From assembly GCA_030828175.1 (NCBI GenBank), contig JAURDB010000012.1, positions 1-34,259 of the forward strand: a stretch of DNA of 34,259 nt. Direction: 5' to 3'. The position numbers and the translations under genes were made by a program. Positions within the stretch are counted from its first letter, which is position 1; the number at the start of each line of letters is the position of its first letter. Below are positions 26,732 to 34,220 of the stretch, one piece after another. The notes under the pieces are model-generated. The model was given only the letters and a program-made list of their open reading frames with translations, was not told where the DNA came from and searched no databases. Source of the DNA: Flavobacteriales bacterium (GTDB lineage: Bacteria; Bacteroidota; Bacteroidia; Flavobacteriales_D; Sanyastnellaceae).

Positions 26732-27917
26732 GCGCACGTTTTGGCTGATGGTTGTCTTGGTCGCCAGCGGATTTGCAGCTTCGGCGCAAACCGGAGACAA
26801 GGCTGCACTGGAAGCAGAACGCGAAGCCATTGCTGCCAGAATCGCTGCCACCCAGAAGCTTCTCCATGAATCTCAGGATGACCAGAAGAAGACCACACGT
26901 CAACTGGCCATACTGGAAGAGGAGCTCGCCCTTCGCCAACAATTGCTGAGCAACCTTCAAAGCGAAAGAAGGGAAACTGAGCGCCGGCTTGCGGCGAGGC
27001 AGTCCAGCGTTTCGAAAGCCGATGCCCAAGTGCAAGCTCTCAAGGATGAGTATGCCGAAATGATTCGCGTTGCAGCGCGCCTGCAGGGTCAAAATGCCCT
27101 GTGGGGACTCCTGCTGGATGCCGAAACCACCACGCAGGTCTTCCAGCGTCTTTTGCTGATCGAAGAATACGGCCGCTTACGGAAGAGCCAAGCTGAACTG
27201 ATTTCCACCTCCACTTTGGCACTCAGAGAAGAAATGGATGGCCTGCGACGGGAAAAGGCCGCGCTGGTCTCCCTCGAAGTCGAATCGCGCGAACAACGGG
27301 ATGCCGCCCGAAAAGGGGCCCTCAGACAGGAGAACATCCTTTCGGATCTCAGGTCGAAGGAGAGACAGCTGAAAGACCAATTGGCCAAGGAAGAGGCCCG
27401 GCGCGCCGAATTGGGCAAGGCCATTGACCGCATCCTCGCCGCAGCCCGGCGCAACAGCAACGAGGGTGAGGGCTTTGCAGCCACCCCGGAGGGGAAAATC
27501 ATCGGAGCTGAGTTCAAGGCGAACCGCGGCAAACTGCCTTGGCCTGTGGCAGAAGGAGTCATTGTGGGTCGGTTCGGAACACACAATCACCCTTCCATAC
27601 CGGGCATTCAGATTGAACGCCGAGGCATTGACATTGCGACATCATCAGATGCGGCAGTAACGGCTGTATTCAGCGGGCGCGTATCGAATGTGATCACCAT
27701 CCCCGGTGGCGGCATGGTGGTGATGGTGGACCATGGTTCGCATCGCACGGTGTACGCCAACCTGTCACGTGTGGACGTGCAGGATGGTGAGGATGTCATC
27801 ACCGGGCAGCCCGTGGGAACCGTTCTGGACCAGGGCAATGGACACCGGGCGCACTTCGAAATCTGGGATGCGGCGGGCAGTGCCCCGTTGAACCCTGAAT
27901 TATGGATTGCCCGATGA
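26709..27917 (+). CDS. EnvC-like murein hydrolase activator with degenerate LytM (M23) domain
   Basis: From TTG 26709 the 402-residue protein has a signal peptide with a basic n-region (MRYGKGFKRTFWLMVVLVASGFAASAQ); the next ATG (26748) would remove all positive charges, so TTG is preferred. Residues ~28-265 form a long coiled coil, and ~275-400 are an M23/LytM fold (GIDIATSSDAAVTAVFSGRVS..VMVDHGSHRTVYANL..GHRAHFEIWD). The first metal His of active enzymes (HxGxD) is Arg here (ERRGID) and the HxH motif reads RAH. It is therefore likely an activator of amidases like EnvC, not a hydrolase. It shares ATGA with feoB. Confidence 0.85.
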   Translation: MRYGKGFKRTFWLMVVLVASGFAASAQTGDKAALEAEREAIAARIAATQKLLHESQDDQKKTTRQLAILEEELALRQQLLSNLQSERRETERRLAARQSSVSKADAQVQALKDEYAEMIRVAARLQGQNALWGLLLDAETTTQVFQRLLLIEEYGRLRKSQAELISTSTLALREEMDGLRREKAALVSLEVESREQRDAARKGALRQENILSDLRSKERQLKDQLAKEEARRAELGKAIDRILAAARRNSNEGEGFAATPEGKIIGAEFKANRGKLPWPVAEGVIVGRFGTHNHPSIPGIQIERRGIDIATSSDAAVTAVFSGRVSNVITIPGGGMVVMVDHGSHRTVYANLSRVDVQDGEDVITGQPVGTVLDQGNGHRAHFEIWDAAGSAPLNPELWIAR

Positions 27918-30040
27918 AGTACGTGTTGATCGGCAACCCCAATTGCGGCAAGACCTCGCTCTTCAATCATTTGACCGGGTCTCGCGCCAAAGTAGCGAAC
28001 CTGCCAGGTGTGACGGTTGAGCCGCTGGTCGCCAACGTGAAGCGGCGCAACGGGAAGCAACACGACATTCAACTCGTGGACCTGCCGGGTACATACAGCC
28101 TGTACCCAAAGGCGCTGGATGAAGCGGTGACGCGGGATGCTCTGTTCAATCCAGACCACCTCCATCGGCCAGATGGCTTGTTGGTGGTGATGGACGCAGC
28201 GAACCTCAAGCGGAACCTCTACCTCACGTTGCAGGTTCTCGAGTTGGAGATTCCAACCTTGGTGGTGGTCAACGAAACGGCACCCACCAGCTGGTCGCCC
28301 GAAGAACTTGCGAATACGTTGGGATGCCCTGTTCTTCCGGTGCACGCCCTGAAAGGCACCGGGACGTCCTTGTTGATGGATCACCTGGAAGCGGGCCTGT
28401 CCCCCTCGCAAAACAATGCAGGTTTGGATTCAAGCGCCCGGGGATGGCGGCACCGTGTCGATCTCGGAGCGTTGTCCTCTGCCCTTCCCCACTTGAGCAC
28501 GGCTGGATTGGAATTGCTTGTCACCTCGGACGATTCGCCCGAATGGTTGTCCAAGGAGGCGCGCGAGGCGTTGCAAACGGTCCGAACTGCCACGGGCTGT
28601 GGTGCTTCTGAGCTCCAATTGGGCGAGGCAGCACACAGAAGCCGACAAGTGCGGAGCATTGCCACAAAAGCACTCGGGCAGAACCCGCCGGCCAGCAGAA
28701 ACATCAGTGCCCGTTTGGACCGGGCGTTGACCCACCGCTTTCTCGGGCCCATGATTCTGATGGCCGTGTTCTTCCTCATTTTCCAGGCCGTGTATTCATG
28801 GGCGACTTGGCCCATGGACCGCATTGATGAGGGCATGGGATGGCTGATGGAAGTCTCCAGGTCTGCGCTGCCCGAAGGCTGGTGGACAGACCTTTTGGTC
28901 GATGGGCTTTTGGCCGGCCTCGGAGGTGTGGTCATTTTCGTTCCTCAGATCGCCCTTCTTTTTGGGGCCATTGCCGCTCTTGAAGAAAGCGGATACATGA
29001 CCCGGGTGGCCTTCATGAACGACCGCTGGCTGCGCGCACTGGGATTGGATGGGCGCTCTGCCATTCCTCTGCTGGGCGGGTTTGCCTGCGCCATTCCTGC
29101 CATTTTGGGCGCGCGAACCATCCCTGGAAAAAGGGAGCGGCTGCTCACCATCCTCATCACGCCATGGATGACCTGTTCGGCCCGCCTGCCCGTGTACCTT
29201 TTTCTCATCGGGTTCGTCGTACCCTCCACGCCCTGGGGACCGGGCGGCCTGTTGAACCTTCAGGGGGTCTTTCTCTTCGGTATATATGCCGCCGGACTGT
29301 TTGCGGGACTCTTGTTGGCTTGGGCACTGAACCGAGGGATTCCGAAATCAGCGCCCACTCAATTTCTGCAGGAATGGCCCCCGTACCGTGTTCCCTCCCT
29401 GCGGCGAACACTGGAACAGATTTGGATGCAGGCGCGCGCCTTCATCGAAGGTGCTGGCAAGGTCATCGTCGTCGTTTCGATCCTGCTTTGGGTGCTGTCC
29501 AATACGTCACCCGGAGGCTTCGAAGCCATCGATTCCGAATATGCGGAACGCATGGAACAAAACGAAGCGGTTTCCGGTCCTGTTGCCGTCTCTGAAAAGG
29601 CGCAAATACAGCGAGAATGGTCCGCTGCCCGCATGGATGCTTCTTGGTCAGGCCGCATGGGCGCATTCATTGAGCCGGTCATTGCCCCTCTCGGTTATGA
29701 TGGCCGCATGGGGGTTGCGCTGATTGCGTCCTTTGCCGCCCGCGAGGTGTTCGTGGGAACCATGGCCACCCTTTATGCCGCGCCAGACAGCGACGAAGGC
29801 ATCGGGCAACTGAAGGAGCGCCTCGGTCGCGAATTGAACCCGGATACCGGAAAGCCCATCCTTACGACCGCCACTGCGATGTCGCTCATCGTTTTCTACA
29901 TGCTTGCCATGCAGTGCATCTCGACGATAGCCATCGTCCGACAAGAACTGGGAAGCTGGAACATTGCAGCATTGCAAGCACTGGGCATGACCCTGTTGGC
30001 TTACTTGGCTGCCTGGATGACGTACGGCTTGATCAGCTGA
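27914..30040 (+). CDS. feoB: Ferrous iron transporter FeoB with altered G4 motif
   Basis: FeoB moves Fe(II) across the inner membrane. The 708-residue protein has an N-terminal G domain with G1 GNPNCGKT (7-14), the switch Thr in PGVTVE and G3 DLPGTYSL (56-63). The G4 position, normally NxxD (NMxD), reads VVNETAP (N120, A123), so the guanine-binding Asp is missing. A helical GDI-like spacer and the membrane part follow, with the Cys-containing gates GFACAIPAILGARTI and FYMLAMQCISTIAI. ATG 27914 shares ATGA with the upstream stop; ATG 27902 would add four residues. It is convergent with feoA, with shared stops. Confidence 0.93.
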   Translation: MKYVLIGNPNCGKTSLFNHLTGSRAKVANLPGVTVEPLVANVKRRNGKQHDIQLVDLPGTYSLYPKALDEAVTRDALFNPDHLHRPDGLLVVMDAANLKRNLYLTLQVLELEIPTLVVVNETAPTSWSPEELANTLGCPVLPVHALKGTGTSLLMDHLEAGLSPSQNNAGLDSSARGWRHRVDLGALSSALPHLSTAGLELLVTSDDSPEWLSKEAREALQTVRTATGCGASELQLGEAAHRSRQVRSIATKALGQNPPASRNISARLDRALTHRFLGPMILMAVFFLIFQAVYSWATWPMDRIDEGMGWLMEVSRSALPEGWWTDLLVDGLLAGLGGVVIFVPQIALLFGAIAALEESGYMTRVAFMNDRWLRALGLDGRSAIPLLGGFACAIPAILGARTIPGKRERLLTILITPWMTCSARLPVYLFLIGFVVPSTPWGPGGLLNLQGVFLFGIYAAGLFAGLLLAWALNRGIPKSAPTQFLQEWPPYRVPSLRRTLEQIWMQARAFIEGAGKVIVVVSILLWVLSNTSPGGFEAIDSEYAERMEQNEAVSGPVAVSEKAQIQREWSAARMDASWSGRMGAFIEPVIAPLGYDGRMGVALIASFAAREVFVGTMATLYAAPDSDEGIGQLKERLGRELNPDTGKPILTTATAMSLIVFYMLAMQCISTIAIVRQELGSWNIAALQALGMTLLAYLAAWMTYGLIS
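30033..30040. other. Palindrome TCAGCTGA containing both feoA and feoB stop codons
   Basis: The 8-bp palindrome TCAGCTGA gives TGA for feoB (30038-30040, plus) and TGA for feoA (30035-30033, minus). The two reading frames overlap across exactly this site. Confidence 0.9.
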
Positions 30041-30266
30041 TGGGCTCGACCCACATGAGCTCTGCCTGCTCCTTGCGAAGGGTGACTACGTTTCCACCTG
30101 TGGTCACGGCCATGGGGTCTCCCAATGGAGCAATGTGCCGGACTTCGATGTCTTCGCCGACCACGCAACCCATTTCCATCAGAGCCAACATCCCTTCCGG
30201 GGCGTCGATTCGGGTGAGCTTGCCGCGCTGGCTGGCTTCGAGGTCACTCAGTCTCTTGAGATCCAT
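30033..30266 (-). CDS. feoA: FeoA-domain protein
   Basis: FeoA is a small cytoplasmic SH3-like partner of FeoB. The real start is ATG 30266 (77 residues, MDLKRLSDLEASQRGKLTRI), with GAGG 8 nt upstream; the track's longer ORF adds an unrelated leader. Typical features are the early DL..L..G....I, then LMEMGCVVGEDIEVRHIAPLGDPMAV and the final V.LRKE.A. Unlike the usual feoAB operon it faces feoB tail-to-tail and overlaps it by 8 bp. Confidence 0.9.
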   Translation of the reverse strand: MDLKRLSDLEASQRGKLTRIDAPEGMLALMEMGCVVGEDIEVRHIAPLGDPMAVTTGGNVVTLRKEQAELMWVEPIS

Positions 30267-30301
30267 GGTGCAAACCTCGCACATGAACCATCTACAGCGA
30301 C

Positions 30302-30321
30302 TCCCCTTTTGAGGGGATTTT
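30302..30321 (+). terminator. Candidate plus-strand terminator upstream of feoA
   Basis: TCCCCT-TTTG-AGGGGA followed by TTTT forms a short intrinsic-terminator-like hairpin on the plus strand. It would stop feoB transcripts that run through feoA in antisense. On the minus strand it lies in the feoA 5' region (35 nt before the ATG). Confidence 0.45.
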
Positions 30322-30351
30322 GCCCCCGCTTTACTTGCCGAAGCGTCTTCC

Positions 30352-30380
30352 AAAGAAAAACCCGGCACGGTGGCCGGGTT
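30352..30380 (-). terminator. Intrinsic terminator after tRNA-Val
   Basis: On the minus strand AACCCGGC-CACCGT-GCCGGGTT (8-bp perfect stem) is followed by TTTCTTT. It begins 5 bases past the tRNA discriminator and separates the tRNA from feoA. Confidence 0.85.
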
Positions 30381-30385
30381 TCCTG

Positions 30386-30460
30386 TGGGTCATACTGGAC
30401 TCGAACCAGTGACCTCTGCCCTGTCAAGGCAGCGCTCTGAACCAGCTGAGCTAATGACCC
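30386..30460 (-). tRNA. tRNA-Val (anticodon GAC), CCA not encoded
   Basis: Read on the minus strand, GGGTCAT/ATGACCC form the acceptor stem. CTGCC-TTGACAG-GGCAG is the anticodon arm with anticodon GAC, and the T arm is ACTGG-TTCGAGT-CCAGT. The discriminator is A and the next bases are CAGGA, so CCA must be added after transcription, unlike tRNA-Gln in this window. It lies 40 bp after the small acidic ORF and has its own TATATTCG box. Confidence 0.94.
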
Positions 30461-30500: not shown

Positions 30501-30767
30501 TCAGTCCTCCTCCAAGGCTTCCTCATCGATGTTGTCCAGGTCGAATCCCTCATCCATGTTCTCTTCGAGTACTTCGAGCATGGCTCTGTCAATCCTGAAA
30601 AGGTAGATGGCCTCGTCAGTTCGGATCTCAAGACAGCGCATGATGCGCCCATCTGACAGGTTGATGGACTGCAGATCGTCGTCACTGAATCCTTCGGGAA
30701 AAGCCGACCCGATGAGGTCGAGGTGATGGGCCTCTACGTTGTTGTAATTCTTGATGATGCGTTTCAC
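30501..30767 (-). CDS. Small acidic protein of unknown function downstream of the DHS-like gene
   Basis: I do not recognise a named family. The 88-residue product begins at GTG 30767 (MKRIIKNYNNVEAHHLDLIGSAFPEGFSDDDLQSINLSDG), has a central RIMRCLEIRTDEAIYLFRIDRAMLEVLE, which looks like a small alpha/beta core, and ends in a strongly acidic tail (ENMDEGFDLDNIDEEALEED). No signal peptide, membrane helix or Cys pair is seen. It follows the DHS-like gene after 21 bp on the same strand, so it is probably in the polyamine operon. An acidic cytoplasmic protein here might bind a basic partner, but this is a guess. Codon pattern fits its neighbours. Confidence 0.7.
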   Translation of the reverse strand: MKRIIKNYNNVEAHHLDLIGSAFPEGFSDDDLQSINLSDGRIMRCLEIRTDEAIYLFRIDRAMLEVLEENMDEGFDLDNIDEEALEED

Positions 30768-30788: not shown

Positions 30789-31772
30789 TCACCAGTCGAG
30801 CAGCCAGCCGAAAAACAGCGGCGCCACGATGGTGGCATCCGATTCGATGACGAATCGGGGCGTCTCAACGCCGAGTTTGCCCCATGTGATTTTTTCATTG
30901 GGAACCGCTCCCGAGTAGCTCCCGTAACTCGTGGTACTGTCGGAAATCTGGCAGAAATAGGACCACAGTGGAACACCGGTTCTGCCGAGGTCCTGATGCA
31001 GCATGGGCACCACACAGATGGGGAAATCGCCCGCTATCCCGCCGCCAATCTGGAAGAAGCCAACGCCCTGTCCGGTCTCCTGAGTCGTCTGCGTGTACCA
31101 ATCCGCGAGGTACATCATGTACTCGATGCCGCTTTTGACCGTTCCGGGTTGGACATCTCCCTCCAGGCAGTGGGCGGCGAAGATGTTGCCCAGCGTGCTG
31201 TCTTCCCAGCCCGGACAGACGATGGGAAGTCCCTTCTCGGCCGCTGCGTGCATCCAACTGTCGGCCGGATCGATCTGGAAAGCGTCGTCCAGTTGTCCAC
31301 CCAAAAGAGCCTCGTAGAAGAACTCGTGTGGGAACTTCCTTTCGCCGCTCAGCTCGGCCTCCTTCCACAGATCCACCATCACCCCCTCCAGCTTGCGAAA
31401 AGCCTCCTCCTCCGGGATGCACGTATCCGTTACGCGGTTCAGTCCGCGGTCGAGCAACGCCTGCTCCTCGGCGGGCGACAAGTCACGGTAATGCGGTACC
31501 CGCTCGTAGTGGTTGTGCGCGACAAGGTTCATCACGTCTTCCTCGAGGTTGGCTCCGGTACAGCTGATGATGTGCACCTTATCCCGGCGGATCATCTCTG
31601 CGAGGCTGCGGCCCAATTCAGCCGTGCTCATGGCGCCTGCGAGGGTAATCATCATGCTTCCTCCGCCCTGCAAGCAAGTGTCGTACGCCTGCGCAGCCTC
31701 AGGGATCACAGCGGCGTTGAAGTGGCGATAATGGCGATCCGCAAAGGCGCGGACAAACGGTTTCTGCTCCAT
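30789..31772 (-). CDS. Deoxyhypusine-synthase-like enzyme with altered amine-binding site
   Basis: The protein (327 residues from ATG 31772, one base after the speB stop) has the deoxyhypusine synthase fold: GAMSTAELG, ISCTGANLEEDV, LNRVTDTCIPEEE, PGWEDSTLGNIF and IGGGIAGDF. The C-terminal motif YGSYSGAVPNEKITWGKL aligns without gaps to human DGSDSGARPDEAVSWGKI. It keeps the catalytic Lys (K299), Trp297 and Glu293. The spermidine-binding D313 and D316 are Tyr here (Y283, Y286), His288 is Asp249 and Asn292 is Cys253. Bacteria have no eIF5A, so it should act on free polyamines. As third gene of speA-speB-DHS-like it may make homospermidine or a related amine from putrescine or agmatine (inference). 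Confidence 0.88.
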   Translation of the reverse strand: MEQKPFVRAFADRHYRHFNAAVIPEAAQAYDTCLQGGGSMMITLAGAMSTAELGRSLAEMIRRDKVHIISCTGANLEEDVMNLVAHNHYERVPHYRDLSPAEEQALLDRGLNRVTDTCIPEEEAFRKLEGVMVDLWKEAELSGERKFPHEFFYEALLGGQLDDAFQIDPADSWMHAAAEKGLPIVCPGWEDSTLGNIFAAHCLEGDVQPGTVKSGIEYMMYLADWYTQTTQETGQGVGFFQIGGGIAGDFPICVVPMLHQDLGRTGVPLWSYFCQISDSTTSYGSYSGAVPNEKITWGKLGVETPRFVIESDATIVAPLFFGWLLDW

Positions 31773-31773
31773 T

Positions 31774-32724
31774 TCAGGTGGATTTTGGCTCGGCAATGGG
31801 CTCGGGTTCCAGCACGTAGGTCAACATCTTGTGCAAGAGTTTCGCTGCGGTGAATGCACTGGGGCTGCGCTCCATCCGGGGGGCGAGCTCCACAATGTCA
31901 AATCCGACAACGCGGTGCCGTTCTGCCGCTGCCCTGATGAGCCCGATGACCTGGTACCAATTCAACCCCCCGGGCTCAGGCGTCCCGGTTTCCGGCAGGT
32001 AGGCAGGGTCAAAAACGTCCAGGTCCACGGTGATGTAGAGCGGGGTACCCGCAGGCCCCAATCTGTCGACAGCAGCCGCGATCCAATCGGCGTCGGCAGC
32101 AGCATGGCAATGCGCTCCGTGAAAGACATTGCCTTCTTGCTCGTAGTGGCGCTCCTCGGCCTCCGTGCTGCGGATCCCCACCTGAACGAGTCGGGCATGT
32201 GTCGCAGCCCAATGCAAAGCGCAAGCGTGGTTACAAGCGGATCCATGGAAGGTGCTCCGCAAGTCGCTGTGTGCATCCAACTGCAAGACTGCCAATCCCC
32301 GCTCTGCAGCCGCACAGGCCTGAATCGCTCCGATACTGACGCTGTGCTCACCCCCTACCACAATGGGCATGACCCCTTTTCCCATCCACTTTCCTACTTC
32401 CCCTCGGACATCCGCGCAAACCTGCTCAGGAGACTTTGCCACGCCATCCACCTCCAGCGGAAGGGCCTCCAGAATGGCAATGCCCTCACCGTGTACTTCG
32501 GAGCCAGACTCGATGTCGAACAGCTCCATGTTCTCGAGTGCCTCAAACATGGCATCCGGTCCTTTGTCCGCCCCCTTTCCCCAAGTGCTCGTCCCATCAT
32601 AGGGCACAGGCAGGATCACGGCACGGGGAAGGCGGCCATCCGTCAGTACGGGCTCTCCGGCATAATGCCGTATGCCCAAAGTGGGAGGGTGGAAATCCGG
32701 CTCGTTGTACATGGAAACCATCAT
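31774..32724 (-). CDS. speB: Agmatinase / ureohydrolase
   Basis: SpeB splits agmatine to putrescine and urea. From ATG 32724, which overlaps the speA stop as ATGA, it has 316 residues; ATG at 32721 and 32712 are alternatives. The two-manganese site is complete: H127 (VGGEHS), D150, H152 and D154 (LDAHSDLR), and D234 and D236 (VDLDVFDPA). PYDGTSTWGKGADKGPDA fits the agmatinase N-terminus. Arginase and other guanidino hydrolases share these motifs; the speA partner favours agmatine. Confidence 0.9.
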   Translation of the reverse strand: MMVSMYNEPDFHPPTLGIRHYAGEPVLTDGRLPRAVILPVPYDGTSTWGKGADKGPDAMFEALENMELFDIESGSEVHGEGIAILEALPLEVDGVAKSPEQVCADVRGEVGKWMGKGVMPIVVGGEHSVSIGAIQACAAAERGLAVLQLDAHSDLRSTFHGSACNHACALHWAATHARLVQVGIRSTEAEERHYEQEGNVFHGAHCHAAADADWIAAAVDRLGPAGTPLYITVDLDVFDPAYLPETGTPEPGGLNWYQVIGLIRAAAERHRVVGFDIVELAPRMERSPSAFTAAKLLHKMLTYVLEPEPIAEPKST

Positions 32725-34220
32725 TGTCGGACCGATTGGGACGCCCGAAAAGCCTTGCGCCGGGACTCCGCTTGTTTGGCCTTGTTGCTCGCCTCGTCCT
32801 CCAAAAGGACGGCTTCCGAACGCTGCTGGCCGTATCCAAGCAGGGCGAGTACGTCTTCCCCCTGCTGCTCGTCGCAAAAAACCTCCGCCTGCAGACGGCC
32901 CTCCGCATCCCGGTTCAACAGCACATGCTTGGGTCCGGGAATCAAGCAATGGTGCACGCCCCCGTGGCCCCCGATGTTGTCCTGATACGCCGCAGTGTTG
33001 AAGAAGGCGAGGTACAGCGGTTTCTCCGGGCTGAACTTGGGCAGGTATATCGCATTGAGGTGCTGCTCCGAATTGTAGTAATCATCGCTGTCGCAGGTCA
33101 ACCCTCCCAGGAATACCCGCTCGTAGTTGTCCTCCCAGCGGTTGACGGGCAGCATCATGAAACGCTTGTTGATCGCCCAGGTGTCCGGAAGGGTCGTCAT
33201 GAAGCTCGAATCGATGAGGTTCCAGCGCTCCCGGTCATTCTGGCGCTTCTGGTACAGGACCTTGAAGAGCGTTCCTCCGGCCTCTCCCACCGTGAAAGAG
33301 CCGAATTCCGTGAAGATGTCCGGAACGGGAACCCCCTGTTCACTGCAGTGTACCATGATCTGTTCGAGGATGGCCTCGATCATGTAGCTGTAATCGTATT
33401 CGAAGCCCAGGGAATTCTTGATGGGAAGCCCGCCGCCGATGTTGAGTGCCGTCAATTGAGGACATTCCTTTCTCAGCAGGCAATACACGTCCAATGCCTT
33501 GCGCAGCTCGTTCCAATAGTATGCCGTGTCCCGAATGCCTGTATTCACGAAGAAGTGGAGCATGCGCAGCCTGAGATTCGGATGGTCCGCCAGGTGCTCC
33601 CGCCAGAAAGGCACGATGCGCCGGTATCCCATTCCCAGGCGAGAAGTGTAGAACTCGAATTTGGGCTCCTCCTCCGATGCAATGCGAAGTCCAACGTCTA
33701 TGGGCGATTTCACCGCCTCACTCAGCATTTCGAATTCCAGCTCGTTGTCCAGAACGGGCAGGATTCCGGTGAACCCATCCGAATGCAGGGCCGCGATCCG
33801 GTCCACGTATGCCCGGGTCTTGAAGCCGTTGCAAACCACCGTGGCCTTGCGGTCCAAATGACCGCTCCCCTCCAGCGACCGAACGATGTCAAGGTCGAAA
33901 GCGCTGCTCGTTTCCAGGCGGGCCCCATGCCGCAACACTTCCTCTGTGACATGGCGGAAATGTGAGCTCTTCGTCACGTAACAATAGTGGTAGGCGCCTT
34001 GGTAGCCCAGCTTGTCCATGGCTTCGTTGAACCAGCCAGTGGCCTTTCGGATGCTCTCGCCGATGCGGGGCAGGTAGGTGAAACGCAGAGGAGTGCCGTA
34101 ACGCTCCACGAGGTCCATCAGGTCAATGCCGTGGAAGTGGAGACTGTCGCCTTCGAGTACGAATTCGTCCTGGGGCCAGTCGAAAGTTTGCTCGATTAGG
34201 TCGAGATACCTTGTTTTCAT
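32721..34220 (-). CDS. speA: Biosynthetic arginine decarboxylase
   Basis: SpeA decarboxylates arginine to agmatine with PLP. The 499-residue protein is a fold-III (alanine-racemase-like) decarboxylase: PLP Lys84 in YCYVTKSSHF, LETSSAFDLDIV, HFFVNTGIRD, LNIGGGLP, TEFGSFTVGEAG, and the C-terminal active-site CDSDDYYN. It is shorter than the ~650-residue E. coli SpeA, as usual for Bacteroidota (from memory). After the expected end near LALLGYGQQ it has a basic tail of ~35 residues (NKAKQAESRRKAFRASQ). It is the first gene of the polyamine operon; only 39 bases upstream are visible, with no clear promoter. Confidence 0.92.
   Translation of the reverse strand: MKTRYLDLIEQTFDWPQDEFVLEGDSLHFHGIDLMDLVERYGTPLRFTYLPRIGESIRKATGWFNEAMDKLGYQGAYHYCYVTKSSHFRHVTEEVLRHGARLETSSAFDLDIVRSLEGSGHLDRKATVVCNGFKTRAYVDRIAALHSDGFTGILPVLDNELEFEMLSEAVKSPIDVGLRIASEEEPKFEFYTSRLGMGYRRIVPFWREHLADHPNLRLRMLHFFVNTGIRDTAYYWNELRKALDVYCLLRKECPQLTALNIGGGLPIKNSLGFEYDYSYMIEAILEQIMVHCSEQGVPVPDIFTEFGSFTVGEAGGTLFKVLYQKRQNDRERWNLIDSSFMTTLPDTWAINKRFMMLPVNRWEDNYERVFLGGLTCDSDDYYNSEQHLNAIYLPKFSPEKPLYLAFFNTAAYQDNIGGHGGVHHCLIPGPKHVLLNRDAEGRLQAEVFCDEQQGEDVLALLGYGQQRSEAVLLEDEASNKAKQAESRRKAFRASQSVRQ

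Follow-up and report, generated by a model that had tools for sequence, protein, structure and literature searches.

The third gene of a polyamine operon in a Flavobacteriales contig encodes a protein like deoxyhypusine synthase (DHS), here called DHSL, which we consider to be the homospermidine synthase of Bacteroidota, coupling putrescine with putrescine to give homospermidine (with a probability of roughly 0.8). In the proposed pathway arginine would be decarboxylated by SpeA to agmatine, which the ureohydrolase (or, in other members, AguA together with AguB) would convert to putrescine; DHSL would oxidise one putrescine with bound NAD, hold it as an imine on Lys307 (Lys329 in human DHS) and hand its 4-aminobutyl group over to another putrescine, yielding sym-homospermidine. 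The putrescine site would be made of Tyr291, Tyr294, Asp257, Cys261 and Asp286. From the fold, the catalytic residues, the clade and the gene linkage of DHSL, and from its mutual exclusion with the carboxyspermidine pathway, all laid out below, we infer this reaction with its substrate and product. The best reading is that DHSL works like the bacterial enzyme SpeY (two putrescines, NAD, a lysine imine) and lies outside the SpeY family as modelled: it is distinct in sequence from the known bacterial versions, and the job itself is of an already known kind. If this is true, active sites of different build can make homospermidine within one and the same fold.

Locus, fold and relatives of DHSL

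The features discussed here are listed in Table 1 for the window, i.e. the whole stretch of 34,259 nucleotides that was analysed. The gene order is speA, then agmatinase, then DHSL, and the ATG of the ureohydrolase at 32724 overlaps the speA stop. An earlier note on this DNA had the ORF of DHSL, its strand and its coordinates right, and the speA and speB that it placed upstream correspond to the SpeA-like gene and the agmatinase that precede DHSL; the span it singled out (30876-31046) ends precisely at the catalytic Lys codon (30876-30878). The SpeA of the window matches PF02784 and NF003763/TIGR01273 with E about 1e-43, under the equivalog cut-offs. Residue numbers of DHSL refer to the 335 aa form (30789-31796, TTG at 31796); the likely start is the ATG given in Table 1.

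Table 1. Features of the DHSL locus in the window, with examples of the small acidic ORF from related loci.
Feature	Position	Strand	Remarks
DHSL, DHS-like protein, probable homospermidine synthase (judged from sequence)	30789..31772	minus	PF01916 match; 327 aa from ATG at 31772
Y291-G-S-Y294-S-G ... E301 ... W305-G-K307 motif	30876..30926	minus	catalytic Lys/Trp/Glu and two Tyr
D286 (human T308 -> Asp)	30939..30941	minus	acid common to SpeY, absent in CdmS and DHS
D257 to C261 (human H288 -> Asp, N292 -> Cys)	31014..31028	minus	from alignment
D199 to N204 (human D238 kept, D243 -> Asn)	31185..31202	minus	from alignment
Agmatinase-family ureohydrolase (SpeB-like)	31774..32724	minus	TIGR01230 182.6 bits, cut-off 174.3; PF00491
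SpeA-like arginine decarboxylase, short, alanine-racemase-fold	32721..34220	minus	499 aa; PF02784
Small acidic ORF downstream of DHSL	30501..30767	minus	GTG start, 88 aa; kept in about 25 related loci
Small acidic ORF downstream of DHSL, examples	L002:3783-4061, L017:5493-5837, L078:5549-5941, L020:3203-3637, L007:5527-5856
FeoB-like ORF	27902-30040	plus
FeoA-domain protein	30033-30368	minus
tRNA-Val	30385-30460	minus

The sole Pfam match of DHSL is PF01916 (deoxyhypusine synthase; 133.6 bits, cut-off 27, E=1.1e-38), and its AF2 model (pLDDT 89.4) aligns to DHS structures with Z about 28-29, about 290 residues being matched, so the resemblance is not due to chance, and the structural comparison that the earlier note had proposed found the DHS fold. 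The active site of DHS lies between subunits; the AF2 model is a single chain, with pLDDT <50 at residues 290-293, which adjoin or include the Tyr positions. The Foldseek/VIA matches of this model back a predicted DHS fold and are silent on the substrate. By PF01916, by its fold and by the invariant K329 equivalent DHSL is a member of the DHS superfamily, in which its clade falls far under every current NCBIfam cut-off: DHSL reaches 89.3 of 304.25 bits for TIGR00321 (dhys, deoxyhypusine synthase sensu stricto), 100.2 of 450 bits for NF001980 (SpeY) and 82.8 of 500 bits for NF002699 (CdmS, caldomycin synthase). Other genomes of the same phylum encode proteins that pass NF002699 or NF001980. As also proposed earlier, we placed the protein in a maximum-likelihood tree, in which DHSL, SpeY and CdmS form one clade each with 100% bootstrap, DHSL standing apart on a long stem; the order among the three clades is uncertain because of the long branches.

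At least 593 relatives of DHSL were found in a genome-contig scan; the best 80 of them are 66-78% identical and nearly all labelled Bacteroidota, and among the relatives listed DHSL is carried by Flavobacterium, Chryseobacterium, Winogradskyella, Riemerella and others. The loci L004, L006, L055, L064, L072 and L079 (67-72% identity) come from MAGs labelled Neomarinimicrobiota, Deltaproteobacteria, Gemmatimonadaceae, Gammaproteobacteria, Verrucomicrobia and Ignavibacteriae, and are likely mis-binned Bacteroidota contigs or transfers.

Active-site residues compared with known DHS-like enzymes

Residues were mapped on an alignment including the human DHS sequence verified against PDB, and human numbering is used for equivalents. 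The catalytic residues that the earlier note saw as kept are in place (E323 as E301, W327 as W305, K329 as K307), the substitutions it reported recur in our alignment (D313 to Y291, D316 to Y294, H288 to D257, N292 to C261), and its gap-free alignment to human DHS holds for 313-329. A further change, D243 to N204, was absent from it and takes away a third amine ligand. Of the two residues it took for amine binders, D316 stands, and D313 is unlisted as an amine ligand in the human DHS-spermidine structure (PMC7226451). In that structure one end of spermidine lies on D316 and the other on D243 and N292, so that all the spermidine end contacts are replaced in DHSL, and H288 comes near the reacting carbon (PMC7226451).

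Among 125 distinct Bacteroidota relatives (pairwise identity 59-100%), N243, C292, Y316 and D288 are found in 125/125 in place of D243, N292, D316 and His288, the ligand set of DHS sensu stricto; D316 loss alone is not diagnostic against DHS, since archaeal DHSs have Leu there. Position 313 is Y in 120 of these sequences and F in 5, and Q305, D308, E323, W327 and K329 are invariant, as are the equivalents of Asp238 and Asp342. Substitutions that are near-fixed in 125 relatives are features of the clade, neither decay nor assembly error. Imine-type chemistry is likely retained, as had been expected, the Lys, Trp and Glu being invariant, and the view that its substrate is not the one used by DHS is supported; the Tyr, Asp and Cys residues may have taken over the binding of the amine. 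The earlier note had also considered that acidic residues might be supplied from elsewhere in the pocket, and the invariant Asp288 and Asp308 are suggestive of this, as read from sequence (Asp288 is unique to the DHSL clade; Asp308 is common to SpeY and absent from DHS and CdmS).

At positions 243/288/292/313/316, human DHS has D/H/N/D/D, CdmS F/N/D/D/L, SpeY M/N/Q/T/L and DHSL N/D/C/Y/Y. SpeY, CdmS and DHSL have thus all lost His288 and the acids of positions 243 and 316, the two solved archaeal DHSs have Leu316 and differ from human DHS there, and CdmS has measured activity with Phe and Leu instead of D243 and D316 (PMC10981699). A loss that is also found in SpeY and CdmS, and for D316 in archaeal DHS, is by itself no sign of a new reaction, and we therefore reject the earlier suggestion that the lost acids point to new polyamine chemistry. 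What is private to DHSL in these sequences is the identity of the replacement residues, together with the acid at 288.

Human and archaeal DHS share with DHSL the fold, the T131/D238/D342 equivalents and the catalytic Lys/Trp/Glu, but are only about 19-21% identical to it, and their amine ligands and His288 are replaced in DHSL. SpeY (Anabaena and many bacteria; NF001980) is homologous to DHS, converts putrescine to homospermidine and has similar gene partners (PMC9992855, PMC10407285). It has the DHS fold and the Lys/Trp/Glu set in common with DHSL, lacks D243, H288, N292, D313 and D316 as DHSL does, has D308 and F289 (and Q305 in most), and is accompanied by ADC with agmatinase or AguA/AguB; however, it forms a separate clade with about 21% identity, differs at the five positions compared above, and keeps K287, which is Gly in DHSL. 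The score far under the SpeY cut-off, the identity of about 21% and the changes at all three spermidine-contact positions of human DHS and at His288 were counted against the homospermidine reading. No enzyme assay of a member of the Bacteroidota DHSL clade was found in our literature search; papers of the Michael group use SpeY for bacterial DHS homologues collectively (PMC9992855, PMC10407285), and a member of the DHSL clade may therefore already carry that name. HSS, the Rossmann-type enzyme of alpha-proteobacteria, has the same product as proposed for DHSL, but its saccharopine-dehydrogenase-like fold is non-homologous and without catalytic lysine imine chemistry, whereas DHSL has the DHS fold and matches only PF01916.

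Putrescine supply and polyamine pathways across Bacteroidota

We surveyed 78 Bacteroidota genomes (62 DHSL-positive and 16 DHSL-negative). Of the 62 DHSL genomes, 61 have SpeA or a SpeA-like gene, which in 27 lies no more than 5 kb from DHSL, and 61/62 have a strong ureohydrolase match (which is not always an agmatinase) or AguA plus AguB; the genomic link to putrescine-forming genes seen with SpeY (ADC with SpeB or AguA/AguB) is thus found with DHSL too. Six genomes (G085, G135, G179, G183, G293 and G030) have the operon DHSL-SpeA(long)-AguB-AguA, five of them confirmed in the loci and one with its gene families checked. No ureohydrolase was found in the DHSL genomes G085, G135, G179 and G108, the last of which has SpeA beside DHSL and AguA/AguB on another contig. 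AguA and AguB turn agmatine into N-carbamoylputrescine and this into putrescine, so with these genes in the operon putrescine is the natural substrate of DHSL. Of the substrates named in the earlier note, putrescine in a homospermidine-type reaction fits the pathway context best, and agmatine is disfavoured by the SpeA-AguB-AguA operons of several relatives, some in genomes without a ureohydrolase.

The main rival is that DHSL couples agmatine as CdmS does, which we hold to be unlikely. SpeA and a ureohydrolase stand beside DHSL in the operon of the window, as the caldomycin route needs, and CdmS has the same fold and catalytic Lys, the same loss of D243, D316 and H288, and a pathway that ends in homospermidine. 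But DHSL lies in a different clade (100/100), is about 23% identical to CdmS, reaches 83 of 500 bits for its model, and lacks the CdmS-specific F243, D292, D313 (kept in CdmS, which uses agmatine) and L316. CdmS would also call for a ureohydrolase in every genome to deguanidinate its product, whereas G085, G108, G135, G179 and G219 carry DHSL without one. Agmatine homocoupling as the main function of DHSL is thus disfavoured by the AguA/AguB operons. Counted against the homospermidine reading in turn is G219, a DHSL genome with no recognised putrescine route. The complete genome G271 has DHSL and ureohydrolases, and no alanine-racemase-fold arginine decarboxylase was found in it; it was counted in the same way, and its putrescine might come from arginase plus ODC or from a pyruvoyl ADC.

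CASDC (over its cut-off) with a partner CASDH occurs in 8/16 DHSL-negative genomes and 0/62 DHSL-positive genomes (Fisher p=5e-7, uncorrected for phylogeny; presence/absence counts over the 78 genomes are not phylogenetically independent). The CASDH partner has a counterpart with 98% identity on a Bacteroides plasmid. SpeD was found in 7/62 DHSL-positive genomes (three of them weak) and 5/16 DHSL-negative ones. The weak SpeD homologues, in the DHSL genomes G002, G080 and G212 (E about 1e-18), might be the neofunctionalised pyruvoyl decarboxylases of PMC10407285. As 55/62 DHSL genomes are without CASDC and SpeD, DHSL is the only recognised triamine-synthase candidate there. Three DHSL-negative genomes (G103, G134 and G216) also lack CASDC, SpeD and a recognised SpeA; G103 and G134 are complete, and are possibly polyamine auxotrophs or users of some other route. 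That the real homospermidine synthase of these genomes is of the HSS type was considered and, as far as PF03435 matches show, rejected, the strongest of them being CASDH (in DHSL-negative genomes only) or mostly saccharopine dehydrogenase-like; two of the latter were confirmed against PDB, and a few matches (e.g. L196, L211) were left unassigned.

The metabolites reported for the phylum agree with the distribution of DHSL. Every member of Flavobacteriaceae is stated to have homospermidine as its major polyamine (PMC3072086), homospermidine reaches 20-27 umol/g in two Flavobacterium species, with spermidine at 0.2-0.3 (PMC8570120), and Bacteroides thetaiotaomicron has spermidine only, made via CASDH/CASDC (PMC10135574). 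In chemotaxonomy, Bacteroidetes are divided into those that make homospermidine and those that make spermidine (Hosoya and Hamana 2004, as cited in PMC10135574), a division that could be explained genetically, and simply, by DHSL and CASDH/CASDC excluding each other. Nothing usable was found in our literature search on the polyamine chemotaxonomy of Hymenobacter, Pedobacter and Chitinophaga. These data also bear on whether DHSL might make homospermidine from spermidine and putrescine, in the manner of DHS or plant HSS. Spermidine is the aminobutyl donor in the ancestral DHS chemistry (PMC7226451); still, with spermidine merely a trace in Flavobacterium (PMC8570120), no recognised spermidine pathway in the 55 genomes above, and the spermidine-contacting residues replaced, we find such a route very unlikely.

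The small acidic ORF and other neighbours

The window, like about 25 related loci (Flavobacteriales, Saprospiraceae and Marinifilaceae), has directly 3' of DHSL a small acidic ORF, probably the fourth gene of the speA-agmatinase-DHSL operon. The protein has 88-150 aa and often a long Asp/Glu tail, matches no Pfam or NCBIfam family, and has only P24, G26 and Y55 invariant among the related loci; it is a candidate regulator or polyamine-binding partner.

Membership in the DHS superfamily and this conserved downstream ORF could also suggest that DHSL modifies a protein lysine, as DHS does in eIF5A, with EF-P or the small acidic protein as the target. We consider this extremely unlikely and reject a protein-modifying DHS: eIF5A (PF01287) was found in 0/78 genomes (two archaeal controls matched), which removes the classical substrate; the spermidine ligands D243, D316 and N292 and His288 are gone; most DHSL genomes have neither a spermidine synthase route nor CASDC for the usual donor; and the companion ORF has no invariant lysine. 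For DHSL as a homospermidine synthase, a tentative extension, rather doubtful at present, is that it represents a third DHS-derived lineage of such enzymes, whose recruitment in Bacteroidota would have been independent of that of SpeY and CdmS; its amine site would have been rebuilt with Tyr-Tyr/Asp/Cys, and the small acidic protein would be its dedicated partner, controlling the enzyme or binding polyamine.

Other genes of the window near DHSL (27902-30460) include a FeoB-like ORF convergent with a FeoA-domain protein, and a tRNA-Val that adjoins this pair.
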